Below, in pieces: positions 45,445 to 49,532 of a stretch of DNA of 64,000 nt. How positions within the stretch are numbered: the stretch's first letter is position 1; each line of letters opens with the position of its first letter. The notes under the pieces were generated by a model. That model did no database searches, was not told the origin of the DNA, and worked only from the letters and a program-made list of their open reading frames with translations. The stretch spans positions 62,001 through 126,000 of the forward strand of contig NZ_SPMX01000003.1 of the NCBI RefSeq assembly GCF_012940005.1, read 5' to 3'. The DNA is from Candidatus Accumulibacter contiguus (GTDB taxonomy: Bacteria > Pseudomonadota > Gammaproteobacteria > Burkholderiales > Rhodocyclaceae). The position numbers were made by a program, and so were the translations under genes.

Positions 45445-45873
45445 CTAGCGGCCGGAATAGACGTTCATCGCCGGGAAGAAGAAGGCGATTTCCACCTTCG
45501 CCGTATCCTCGCCGTCGGAACCATGAACGGCGTTGGCGTCGATCGACTCGGCGAAATCGGCGCGGATCGTTCCCGGATCGGCCTTTTTCGGATCCGTCGC
45601 CCCCATCAGTTCGCGGTTCTTGGTGATCGCATTCTCGCCCTCAAGAACCTGGATCATCACCGGGCCGGAAATCATGAAGGAAACCAGATCGTTGAAGAAA
45701 GGACGCTCCTTATGGACGGCGTAGAAGGCGCCAGCTTCCTGCGGCGACAGCCAGACCAGTTTGGCAGCGATGACCTTCAGGCCATTCGTCTCAAAACGGG
45801 AGTAGATCTTGCCGATCACATTCTTCGCAACGGCGTCGGGTTTGATGATGGAAAGGGTACGTTCGATGGCCAT
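45445..45873 (-). CDS. ndk: nucleoside diphosphate kinase
   Basis: 142 residues. [20 protein letters not shown] at the N-terminus and the phospho-histidine in NAVHGSDG mark Ndk, which balances NTP pools. GGAG lies eight bases before the ATG. First gene of the ndk-rlmN-pilF-rodZ-ispG-hisS-yfgM-bamB-der run, all on one strand with overlaps or short gaps. Confidence 0.98.
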
Positions 45874-45958: not shown

Positions 45959-47525
45959 ATGAGCATTCGTGGAGTGATCGCGGCTTCCGAGCCGCATACG
46001 GCACTGGCCGGAGCGCGTCTACTGCGCCGCGGCGGCAACGCGGTCGACGCGATCGTCGCCGCCAAGTTCGCCGCCACCGTCACCGAGTTGCCTCTGACCT
46101 CGCTCGGCGGCGGCGGTGCCTGTATCTGGGGAGACGCCAGGGACGGCTACGAAGTCCTCGATTTTTTTTGCTGTCGCGCCGGGGCGTGGCCTCGAAGCGT
46201 TTCCAGAACTGGACTTTGCGCCGGTGACCATCGATTTCGGCCAGACCAAGCAGGTCTTTCACATCGGCAGAGCGGCGGCAGCGGTTCCCGGTGAACTGGT
46301 CGGCCTGCTTGAATTGCACCGGCGCGCCGGCCGCCTGCCCTTGCGTGAGGTCGTAGCGCCGGCAGCAGCCTGGGCGCGCGATGGATTCCTGGTCAGCCCG
46401 CAGATCGCGATGATTATCGGCCTGATCGCGCCGATCGCCAAATCGTCGCCATCGGCAGCATCTCTGTTCCTCGCTGGCGGACGCCTGCCGCAAGCCGGGG
46501 ATCGCCTGGCCAACCCCGACCTCGGCGATTTTCTGCAGGCACTTGGCGAAGGCGATCCGGAAACCCTGGTCGCCACATATTGGGCTTCGCTGGTCGAACA
46601 CTTCGGCCCTGCACATGGCGGGCTGATGACCACGCAGGATGTTGCCGCCTACTCGCCAGTCGTGCGCGAACCGCTGCGTGTCCCCTATGGCCCCTACAGT
46701 GTGTTGACCAACCCGCCGCCGGCCGCCGGCGGTGGCCTGATCGGCGCCGGGCTACGCATCGCCGAGAGCCTTGGCATCGGCCACGAGGCGTTTCTCTCAC
46801 GCGATCATCAACTCGCAGTGGCGGCGATACTGGCAACCGTATCGCAGATTCGCCAGTCGGGTTACGACCACCGACTGCATGCCGACCCGGCGTCGATCCG
46901 TGCCCTGGTTGCCGGCGACGGCATCCCGGCCTGGGTCGAGTGGGCACGAGCGCGCGCTGACGAGAACCCGCTCGGCGCGACCACGCATATCTCGGTGATC
47001 GACGCCGAGGGCATGGCCGCGGCAATGACCACCAGCAACGGCGAAGGTTGCGGCCACGTCCTACCGGGACTGGGAATCCACGTCAACAATTTCCTCGGCG
47101 AAGACGACATCAACCCGGTCGGCTTCCATCGACTGGCAGCGGGAAGCTGGATGAGCACGATGATGTCACCAACGATCGTCGTCGCCGGCGATCGGCCGTG
47201 TTTTGCCCTCGGCAGCGGTGGGTCGAACCGGATTCGCAGCGCCATCCTGCAGGCGCTGCTCAATCTGCTGGCCTATCGACGCCCGCTCGACGAAGCGCTG
47301 AACGCCGCCCGCCTGCATGTCGAAGGCAGCAAGCTGTGGTTCGAGAACGTCGGCCTCGCAACGGCTACGGCTGACGCCCTGCAGCAGGCCTGGCCGGCAG
47401 CGACCCGTTTCGACTCGACGAGCATGTTTTTCGGCGGGGTCAACGGCGTCGCCAGCGCCAACGGTCGTCTGTCTGGCGCCGGTGACCGCAGACGTGGCGG
47501 CGTCGTGGTGGTCGCCGAGGCATAG
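45959..47525 (+). CDS. ggt: gamma-glutamyltransferase family protein (frameshifted)
   Basis: N-terminal nucleophile hydrolase that acts on gamma-glutamyl compounds such as glutathione. The N-terminus (IRGVIAASEPHTALAGARLLRRGGNAVDAIVAA) lacks a signal peptide, so it is probably cytoplasmic. The presumed catalytic Thr at the self-cleavage site is in GATTHISVIDAEG; LGSGGSNRIRSAILQAL is the C-terminal glycine motif. The frame breaks at an eight-T run (46162-46169): GYEVLDFF is followed by CCRAGAW in one frame and AVAPGRGLEAFPELDFAPV in the other. One base fewer gives 521 residues. The last codons lie in a direct repeat shared with the potD end. Confidence 0.88.
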
Positions 47526-47550
47526 CCGGATTCAGCGGACCTTGATCTCG
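47487..47550. repeat. direct repeat, left copy (ggt/potD junction duplication)
   Basis: 64 bp covering the last codons of ggt and a second copy of the potD 3' end. It matches 48420-48480 except for one extra TGG triplet and one A/G change that turns the ggt stop TAG into TGG in the right copy. Confidence 0.92.
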
Positions 47551-47586
47551 AAGACCGGACGCGTTTTCCACGTAGTAAAGTCATCG

Positions 47587-48201
47587 TCAAGGGTGCTGAT
47601 CGACCGGCGCGGCGGAGTGATCCGGTAGCTTGTCCAGAACCGCCTGCCAACGAATGACGATTTCAGGGAAGATGGCCGGCGACCGTTCTCCGGCCATCTC
47701 GACGATTTCCGGGCCGCCGTAGAGTCCGTCCTTCAGCGTGTAGAGGGTAATGACGCGGTCGACCGGGTGAACGAGCCAGTATTCGCGGACACCGGCGCGT
47801 TCGTACAGGGAGCGTTTGGTCAGGTGGTCGTGGCGGGCGGTGGCCGGGGAGAGAACCTCGATGATCCAGTCCGGGGCGCCGCGGATATGGTTTTCGGTGA
47901 CCTTGGCCGGGTCGCAGACCACCAGAATATCGGGCTGGACGACGGTCGTCACCTGCTCGTCAGCTTCGTTCGCTGCCGGCAACAGGACGTCGACCGGAGC
48001 GATCAGGGCGCGGCAGGGGGTGCCATCCAGGGCTTGATCGATCTGTCGGAAAAGCTGACCAGTCAGAATTTGGTGGCTGATCGTCGGTGCCGGCGCCATC
48101 GCGTAAGCTACGCCGTCGATCAGTTCCCAGCGTTCATCATCGGGCCACTGCCGGTAGTCGGCATAGGTAAAGCGGTGTCCCGTGGCTCTCGGCAAAGCCA
48201 T
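47587..48201 (-). CDS. Uma2 family endonuclease (DUF820)
   Basis: 204 residues with the PD-(D/E)XK-like Uma2 pattern: RFTYADYRQWPDDERWELIDGVAYAM, VQPDILVVCDPAK, GAPDWIIEVLSPATARHD and YERAGVREYWLVHP. The Glu of WELIDG, the Asp of QPDI and the Glu of IIEVLS are candidate active-site residues. Natural substrates of the family are unknown, and it is abundant in cyanobacteria and spread sporadically elsewhere. It lies alone inside an ~870-bp segment bounded by direct repeats, a sign of recent insertion. Confidence 0.9.
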   Translation of the reverse strand: MALPRATGHRFTYADYRQWPDDERWELIDGVAYAMAPAPTISHQILTGQLFRQIDQALDGTPCRALIAPVDVLLPAANEADEQVTTVVQPDILVVCDPAKVTENHIRGAPDWIIEVLSPATARHDHLTKRSLYERAGVREYWLVHPVDRVITLYTLKDGLYGGPEIVEMAGERSPAIFPEIVIRWQAVLDKLPDHSAAPVDQHP

Positions 48202-48419
48202 GCTATTGACTCCGGCAGTGCACACCTTGGCATTGTGCCTTGAGGTCTGCCCGCAAGGCAAGCGAAAGAGGGAGAGCCTTGTCCAACGTGGTATGAGCCT
48301 GAACGAGGACTGCATTTTCATCCAGCATACTGTCGCGTCCGGTTCGATAGATCAAGCTGGTCGACCACCTCCACGATGAATCACGCCAAGCGATCCTGGT
48401 TCAGCCAATCGCCGCTGGG

Positions 48420-48480
48420 CGCAGACGTGGCGGCGTCGTGGTCGCCGAGGCATGGCCGGATTCAGCGGACCTTGATCTCG
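48420..48480. repeat. direct repeat, right copy (ggt/potD junction duplication)
   Basis: 61 bp nearly identical to 47487-47550. It supplies the real C-terminal codons and stop of potD (48462-48464, minus strand) and a vestige of the ggt end without its stop. Confidence 0.92.
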
Positions 48481-49532
48481 GTCCACATCCGCGACAGTGA
48501 ACGGCGCGTTTTCGGGTCGAAATCACGCAACATTTCGAGTCGCAAGAGCTCGTCCGGCGGCGGGAAGATACCAGGATTGCCGGCAATCTCGGGAAGAATG
48601 AACGGCGTCGCTGCCGCGTTCGGGTTGCCGGCGCCGATCAGGTTGGAAACATCGGCGGCGTTGGCGCCTTCGAGCATGAAATCGATAAACTGGTGCGCGA
48701 GGTCGGGGCGGCCGCCGGATTTGTGCAGGACCAAGCTGTCGACCGCCAGCACCGCACCTTCCTTCGGCATCCGGAAGTCGATGGTGAATGGGCGCTTCGC
48801 TTCCAGCGCGTCCTGCTGGGCCCGATACATGTCGCTCGAGTAGCCGTGCGCGACCCAGATGTTGCCGATCGCCAGATCCTTGATGTAGGTGCTGTTGGAA
48901 AAAGTCGCCCAGTACGGCTTGGCGCGCAGGATCAGGCGCTTGGCTTCATCCCAGCGAGCCGGATCACTCTCCTGAACCGAGTAGCCGAGGTATTTCATCG
49001 CCGCGGCCATCAGTTCACGCTGGCTGTTGAGGACCGTCACCTTGCCTTTCAGTTTCTCCAGGTAACGCGGCTCGAAGATCAGCGCCCAACTATCGGTCGG
49101 CAGGCCAAGTTCGGCCAGCCGGCTGGCGTTGTAACCGAGCAGTGTCACCGTGGTCGCATAGGGCACCGCGTAGTGCATGCCGGGATCGTACCAGGGGTTG
49201 CGAAACTCGGCCTTGACGTTCTGCAGATTGGGCAGTTTGCTCTTGTCGAGCGGACGCAGCGCGTTCTTGCGGAGCAGCGTTTCGACGGCGTTACCCGTGG
49301 GAACGATCAGATCGTAACCGATCGCACCGGCCTCGAGCTTGGCCAGCATTTCCTCGTTGTCGGAGTAGAAGTCCTGTTTCAGCCGACAGCGACATTGCGC
49401 CTCGAACCGATGCACGGTGTCGTCCGAGAGGTAGGTATTCCAGATGTAGAGATAGAGAACGTCTTCAGCATGCGCCAGCATCGCGAGGACGGCGAGCAGC
49501 ACTGCAACGACGCTGGCGCGCAGCGCTTTCAT
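48462..49532 (-). CDS. potD: spermidine/putrescine ABC transporter substrate-binding protein
   Basis: Periplasmic polyamine-binding protein, 356 residues. A signal peptide (MKALRASVVAVLLAVLAMLAHA) is followed by VLYLYIWNTYLSDDTVHRFEAQ, YDLIVPTGNAVETLLRKNAL, YAVPYATTVTLLGYN and ANAADVSNLIGAGNPNAAA, as in PotD/PotF. Last gene of potABCD, overlapping potC by 4 bases. Confidence 0.95.
   Translation of the reverse strand: MKALRASVVAVLLAVLAMLAHAEDVLYLYIWNTYLSDDTVHRFEAQCRCRLKQDFYSDNEEMLAKLEAGAIGYDLIVPTGNAVETLLRKNALRPLDKSKLPNLQNVKAEFRNPWYDPGMHYAVPYATTVTLLGYNASRLAELGLPTDSWALIFEPRYLEKLKGKVTVLNSQRELMAAAMKYLGYSVQESDPARWDEAKRLILRAKPYWATFSNSTYIKDLAIGNIWVAHGYSSDMYRAQQDALEAKRPFTIDFRMPKEGAVLAVDSLVLHKSGGRPDLAHQFIDFMLEGANAADVSNLIGAGNPNAAATPFILPEIAGNPGIFPPPDELLRLEMLRDFDPKTRRSLSRMWTEIKVR

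Follow-up and report, generated by a model that had tools for sequence, protein, structure and literature searches.

Comparison of a 64-kb window (the whole stretch of DNA analysed) with related genomes showed that its uma2 gene lies between two copies of the ggt-potD junction, and confirmed that the ancestral state of the site was a single junction with adjacent stops and no insert. The comparison suggests that such a duplication is an occasional accident of accessory genes and not a trick of the uma2 family, and the event is apparently one visible outcome of recombinase-free insertion, common to other accessory genes. The locus provides a clean example of a gene gained in a 6-bp gap without a recombinase of its own, with the empty sites present in relatives.

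The duplicated ggt-potD junction and its insert

The uma2 gene is flanked by a direct repeat of 74/71 bp (Table 1), the copies of which share 90.5% identity over 74 columns (E about 1e-24 in a comparison within the 1.3-kb flanks) and differ by a 3-bp deletion and four substitutions. The original prediction, made from the letters of the window, had described a junction duplication of 61-64 bp; the duplication is real and its length is revised here. Alignment of the copies bore out the accompanying reading that the left repeat carries the true end of ggt with a ghost of the potD end, and the right repeat the true end of potD with a ghost of the ggt end, where one of the four substitutions has altered the stop codon. 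Both host genes are intact, as had been proposed, with whole open reading frames (ORFs) matching PF01019 and PF13416, respectively. In a scan of the 64-kb window for direct repeats (length 45-400 bp, score of 50 bits or more, spacing 0.4-3.5 kb), no other was found. The repeat does not belong to a dispersed family in the window's own genome (G000), where positions 46900-49000 matched only themselves and one other uma2 gene among the candidates scored (7 of 132), and a genome-wide family of the repeat without the insert was likewise not seen there.

In order to establish the state of the site before insertion, the junction was compared in related genomes, and was found in a single, insert-free copy in two of the same genus, G010 (contig C1, where the ggt and potD matches overlap at 2942441-2942514) and G043 (contig C54, overlap at 45558-45630). 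The ggt and potD stops are 6 bp apart in both empty sites (positions 560 and 567 of L041 for G010; by sequence for G043), exactly the spacing that had been predicted for the ancestor. Relative to G043, there are eight differences in the left copy, and nine plus the 3-bp deletion in the right copy. Six of these differences are common to both copies, and five of the six are also absent from G010; since both copies share lineage-specific positions, one was copied from the other within its own lineage and neither came from a diverged source. The duplication therefore arose after the split from G043, with the lineage's own sequence as its source. At position 47482 the right copy matches both G043 and G010, indicating that it retains the older base there.

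Table 1 Features of the ggt-uma2-potD locus, in positions of the window
Feature	Position	Strand	Basis
ggt (gamma-glutamyltranspeptidase), intact left neighbour; true start may lie elsewhere	46116-47525	+	ORF; PF01019, E 5e-66
Left junction copy: real ggt end and ghost potD end	47477-47550	.	Repeat alignment
Stretch between left repeat and uma2 unit, 28 bp; inner ~11 bp may still be uma2 tail	47551-47578	.	Ends compared
uma2 unit, occurring in different surroundings in G013, G041 and Dechloromonas SSD3	47579-48272	-	DNA comparison
uma2 gene, 204 aa, intact	47587-48201	-	PF05685; alignment; solved relatives 9y1l, 6okh
Element A: outer end of multicopy IS-like element, truncated	48275-48325	+	Copies in G013, G004 and others
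Piece B: internal part of DDE transposase gene, antisense, N-terminal coding	48321-48411	-	79-91% to copies in many relatives
Right junction copy: ghost ggt end (TAG now TGG, 3-bp deletion) and real potD end	48410-48480	.	Repeat alignment
potD-like periplasmic binding protein (SBP), intact right neighbour	48462-49532	-	ORF; PF13416

Three recognisable pieces make up the mosaic insert: a uma2 unit, an outer end from a multicopy IS-like element (A) and a 90-bp internal piece of a DDE transposase gene (B). The original prediction of ~870 bp entering between the junction copies is thus upheld as to the insertion and not as to a lone Uma2 gene. Similarly, the view that no transposase or terminal inverted repeat is visible holds in that there is no whole IS, and fails in that transposase-derived DNA is present at 48321-48411: the insert has no whole transposase and no terminal inverted repeats at its ends, only the transposase piece and one IS-like end. 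The best inverted pair in the insert region is 23 nt at 78%, with one arm partly within the repeat, and no IS-like sequence was recognised to the left of uma2.

The encoded protein matches the Uma2 profile over positions 2-168 of 172 (E 1.4e-32) and presumably adopts the predicted PD-(D/E)XK-type fold; residues D91, E115 and K129, which we take to have a putative role in nuclease activity, are invariant in all eight aligned sequences. At the DNA level, the uma2 unit (47579 to about 48272) is 87% identical to that of G013, 86% to G041 and 81% to Dechloromonas SSD3. In the three copies of element A that were read, the differing flanks stop at the same base to within one position. Piece B has five equal-scoring copies in G010, and the corresponding full-length gene (L044 613-1968) matches PF01609 and PF05598. 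The joint between A and B has an overlap of CCAG and that between B and the ggt ghost an overlap of CG, as judged by eye against donor families and not the actual donor. The three pieces each occur apart from one another in relatives, and no donor with uma2, A and B in the order of the window was found. No relative of the 28-bp stretch 47551-47578 was found in the 1.9 Mb of loci compared. Among 40 of 59 candidates scored in the 167 contigs of the window's own genome, no insert piece had another close copy; the pieces would thus have an outside origin, unless their sources have been lost or are missing from the assembly.

The uma2 unit ends ~8 bp past the stop codon, an end that varies by no more than 2 bp among four unrelated contexts, one of them Dechloromonas (window position 47579; L246, L247, L248); its upstream end differs between contexts. 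A fixed cassette end may exist: the downstream boundary is shared, but the upstream boundary is not. A 10-base similarity between the end of element A and the G013 flank was judged to be due to chance.

Repeats at other uma2 and accessory loci

The same layout was found at a second uma2 locus for which empty sites exist. There, in G041 and G003, two junction copies of ~94 bp (76% alike) enclose a different uma2 gene, which separates cbiA (a gene with a CobB/CobQ-like domain) from the cobalamin riboswitch that follows it. The junction is single-copy in G021, G042 and G016, which represent empty sites; in G021 (L236) a 36-bp gap lies between the cbiA stop (640) and the start of the riboswitch (677), and both sides survive at the occupied locus. 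The cbi site is a hot spot with changing cargo: G023 carries other cargo with one recognisable junction copy, and in G014 ~29 kb lie between two partial junction copies (L242-L243, G014 C93:27505-56392). By eye, the ORFs of the G014 stretch resemble a cluster for lipid/aryl-polyene-like biosynthesis, a uma2 gene paired with a nucleotidyltransferase and an operon for transport; the stretch also contains a third cbi-end ghost, and its last part is flanked by a 187-column repeat at 90%. A third uma2 locus lies at the end of a zinc-ribbon gene in G006 (L117), with a 260-bp repeat. Searches of L117 and of L104 found no clean empty site for either. In G023, a PIN gene sits between the real cas2 3′ end and its ghost (366 and 407 bp; L379), as read from the occupied locus.

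In order to determine how frequently uma2 genes are flanked in this way, the 87 uma2 places in the 28 genomes of the genus (Accumulibacter) were collected, and 81 of these were read with their flanks, corresponding to 42 independent loci (five fragments and one second gene within a fetched locus were dropped). Flanks were short of full length at some loci near contig ends, and one of the 81 had too little flank for the 1-kb scan. Direct repeats of at least 40 bp within 1 kb were present at 6 of 80 uma2 loci, or four independent loci (the window; L104; L100 with L122; L101 with L105), and 1.3-kb flanks add L117 as a fifth. As a control, non-overlapping anchors placed at random in 400 kb from G010 and G016 had flanking repeats in 2 of 160 cases, one of them in a repetitive gene region, whereas PIN-domain genes had them at 7 of 70 loci (6 of 49 independent loci; the 70 were taken from 312 tallied places and are mostly the best-scoring). 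Relative to the random anchors, the Fisher p values were 0.004 for PIN and 0.018 for uma2, and PIN did not differ from uma2 (p 0.77). Accessory loci therefore appear enriched for flanking repeats, with uma2 not special among them; several of the repeat matches at accessory loci are dispersed or IS repeats. Across genera, repeats of at least 30 bp spanned uma2 at 6 of 75 loci, compared with 10 of 134 displaced anchors, and repeats of at least 40 bp at 5 of 75 compared with 4 of 134 (Fisher p 0.29); 75 loci were scanned out of a set of 80, nine of them from Accumulibacter, that were the best of at least 584 relatives. An unclear 75-bp pair 3.2 kb apart was also seen within the 400-kb control (L178).

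Several candidates were set aside on inspection. L104 (G014 C93, 124-bp repeats at 90%) was rejected as a clean case, as its repeat is partly a dispersed family and its insert holds a second cbi-end ghost; the dispersed repeat, ~60-78 bp at L104:787-932, occurs in both orientations in many relatives and at nine places in the window's own genome among the candidates scored. L101 and L105 (98 bp at 71% and 53 bp at 74%) were too weak to count, L259, L290 and L294 look like dispersed repeats, and the L246 pair lies within IS-like sequence. L273 was rejected as an insertion duplication, being a tandem duplication of uma2 with its flanks (L273:2438-3906) that includes parts of both neighbours (the plsY end and rng start, named by eye); its two uma2 copies differ in a short N-terminal stretch. 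Among the PIN matches, L379 is a gene-end duplication, L344, L350 and L368 look dispersed or IS-derived, L371 and L372 are short, and L407 sits among regulator-like genes.

Further uma2 loci, picked without regard to repeats, were compared with sister genomes. Flanks were searched for seven of nine prepared loci and, in a second round, for nine loci, and usable pairs were obtained for L132, L139, L103, L126, L102 and L137; L126 was not counted, being occupied in all four genomes compared. None of the five remaining loci had a long duplication, indicating that insertion duplicates the site only occasionally. Because the window and cbi loci had been chosen for their repeats, a rate of "two of seven" would be too high. 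At L139, 857 bp entered and 26 bp were lost relative to G041 (flanks 94-95% identical); elsewhere this site holds 172 bp (G016) or ~1.9 kb of other sequence (G042 and G023). At L103, 970 bp with an overlap of ~5 bp distinguish the locus from G014, which may equally reflect a loss in G014. At L132, 154-218 bp were replaced relative to G003, G016 and G014, and G021 carries ~3.1 kb of other sequence. Replacements of 37-97 bp were found at L137 (relative to G010, G043 and G006) and of 86-106 bp at L102 (relative to G010 and G043; a weak comparison at 75% identity). By ORF lists, the gaps between neighbouring genes are about 330 bp at L103, about 290 bp at L132 and about 11 bp at L102.

The duplication had been proposed to show how Uma2 genes move. 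With none of five unselected loci duplicated, an equal frequency at PIN genes and no excess across genera, this proposal was abandoned. The related expectation, that other uma2 genes would be flanked by repeats of their insertion site, held at the cbiA locus with its empty sites and, without a clean empty site, in G006, and did not hold at the five loci chosen otherwise.

At the L137 site, a uma2 remnant with an inner stop was observed in the window's own genome (L416, G000 C24:146316-146498) and the whole gene in G004, and no uma2 sequence was seen in G010, G043 and G006. The L126 site has uma2 in G041 and different inserts of ~2.4-5.3 kb in G003, G014, G016 and G042 (L334-L337).

Routes to the duplication

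The evidence leans, by somewhat better than an even chance, towards an illegitimate capture of mosaic DNA by a template-switch-like route, in which the chromosome would be re-entered backwards and the outcome tolerated at tight junctions. Replication or repair would depart the chromosome at the potD side of the junction, the foreign pieces (the uma2 unit, the end of element A and the scrap of DDE transposase gene) would be copied or joined, and the chromosome would be re-entered ~74 bp behind the departure point, inside the ggt end; the junction would be duplicated because of this backward re-entry, and no recombinase carried by the insert would be required. The arrangement would survive because both gene ends are whole, whereas a non-duplicating insertion in the 6-bp gap would risk cutting one of them. 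We infer the template-switch route, the entry of the mosaic in one step and the selective filter alike, and the IS scraps could be later arrivals or leftovers of a larger insert.

Outcomes at uma2 loci range from duplications of 74 bp (window) and about 94 bp (cbi), through the ~5-bp overlap of L103, to replacements of 26 bp (L139), 37-97 bp (L137) and 154-218 bp (L132), a variation expected for recombination without fixed ends. Of the 28 genomes of the genus, 27 gave no match to Ku (PF02735), among them the window's own genome, which is 98.7% complete; classical end joining is accordingly an unlikely route. Taken together, the variable outcomes, the mosaic insert, the short overlaps read by eye at two of its joints and the lack of a Ku match in 27 of 28 genomes fit template-switch-like capture better than a transposon, an integrase or classical end joining; with lengths of 2 and 4 bp, however, the joint microhomologies prove no route. 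The two duplicated loci with empty sites have gaps of 6 bp (ggt/potD) and 36 bp (cbiA/riboswitch), and the non-duplicated L103 and L132 lie in wide gaps. From these few loci, with gaps taken from ORF lists, we infer that selection retains duplicative outcomes at tight junctions, where they spare both neighbours. L102, which is not duplicated despite its ~11-bp gap, runs counter to this pattern, in a comparison made at 75% identity. The sole Ku-like match in the genus is a partial one in G021 (C23:52909-53160, L369), covering profile positions 2-86 of 190.

The strongest rival, although an unlikely one, is a Campbell-type single crossover, in which a circle carrying uma2, the IS scraps and one ggt-potD junction recombined with the chromosome by RecA. 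A single crossover yields exactly the order repeat-insert-repeat, its repeat length equals the homology and so is free to vary by site (74, 94, 260, 366-407 bp), and a cassette, once formed, could leave and re-enter the same site. However, homologous integration of a circle explains the form of the locus and not the first joining, since it presupposes a molecule in which junction and uma2 are already joined and shifts the origin elsewhere; no such molecule was found in the plasmid collection (one unrelated 56-bp match), and both junction copies bear their own lineage's substitutions. These substitutions also tell against the remnant of a site-specific island, in which a tyrosine recombinase would have used the ggt 3′ end as att, the 74-bp repeats would be attL and attR, and the island would since have been mostly lost: imported att copies should diverge from the host copy, whereas both copies share host-lineage states. 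Islands are classically recognised by direct repeats at gene 3′ ends, and the ggt-potD locus resembles attL/attR islands in that its repeats hold a gene 3′ end and the neighbour stays whole; the ~29 kb between the partial cbi junction copies in G014 would also suit an island. Unlike such islands, the insert is smaller than 1 kb and its repeats are in-lineage copies with the ends of both neighbours. The ORFs of the insert include no integrase, an inspection by eye of the ORFs listed for the G014 stretch likewise showed none, and visual comparison suggests no relation between the sites duplicated at different loci. An island remnant is improbable.

Little credence is likewise given to an IS-driven event, in which a composite of uma2 and a neighbouring element A or DDE element would have inserted at this site and then been reduced to scraps by deletion. 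The outer end of element A abuts the uma2 unit and the transposase scrap abuts the right repeat, as this would require, and the insert lies, as in transposition, between two direct target copies and is absent from the empty site. However, IS target duplications are a few bp, far shorter than the 74 bp here or the 94-407 bp at other loci, and unlike them the duplications at uma2 inserts vary in length by locus (74, about 94, about 5 and 0 bp), with other uma2 loci lacking one. Moreover, piece B comes from the interior of a transposase gene and not from an IS end, the left side showed no recognisable IS-like sequence, and, unlike a transposon, the insert has no whole transposase of its own. A Uma2-driven event, in which widely staggered nicks by the nuclease would be followed by copying in of its own gene and by fill-in giving a long target duplication, is highly improbable. 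The Uma2 protein is intact, with its predicted PD-(D/E)XK-type fold, and repeats flank 4 of the 42 independent loci when flanks of 1 kb are read and a fifth when they are extended to 1.3 kb, but the duplicated sites look unrelated, and Uma2-specific mobility as the main reading was ruled out by the PIN control (flanked by repeats as often), the sister-genome comparison (0 of 5 loci duplicated) and the cross-genus scan (uma2 loci not above control anchors).

The preferred template-switch-like capture has a close parallel in microhomology-mediated template switching, or short-patch illegitimate recombination, with which the ggt-potD locus shares a mosaic from unlinked sources, a flanking duplication of arbitrary length and, as far as judged by eye, tiny overlaps at the joints. 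Template switching of this kind has been described mainly in eukaryotes and in experimental transformation, whereas here it is proposed on the basis of a natural genome. The locus leads to a testable rule, that surviving insertions at tight junctions should be those that duplicate the junction, and to a caution, that long repeats around a lone gene are not to be taken as att sites or as a trait of the gene family. A general form, in which lone accessory genes (uma2, PIN toxins, nucleotidyltransferases) would dock without a recombinase at tight junctions, with 70-400 bp copied, the neighbours spared and repeats left for removal or exchange by RecA, is doubtful; if true, gene junctions would be natural, reversible docking sites.

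A comparable arrangement was observed outside the genus in Methylomonas fluvii (L274, known from the occupied locus alone), where the end of a gene named by eye as uvrA is followed by uma2 and one more gene. Unlike at the ggt-potD locus, the insert there holds other genes and the ghost is only 78% identical; as at that locus, the insert is bounded on its far side by a decayed ghost of a gene 3′ end, here the 3′ region of uvrA.
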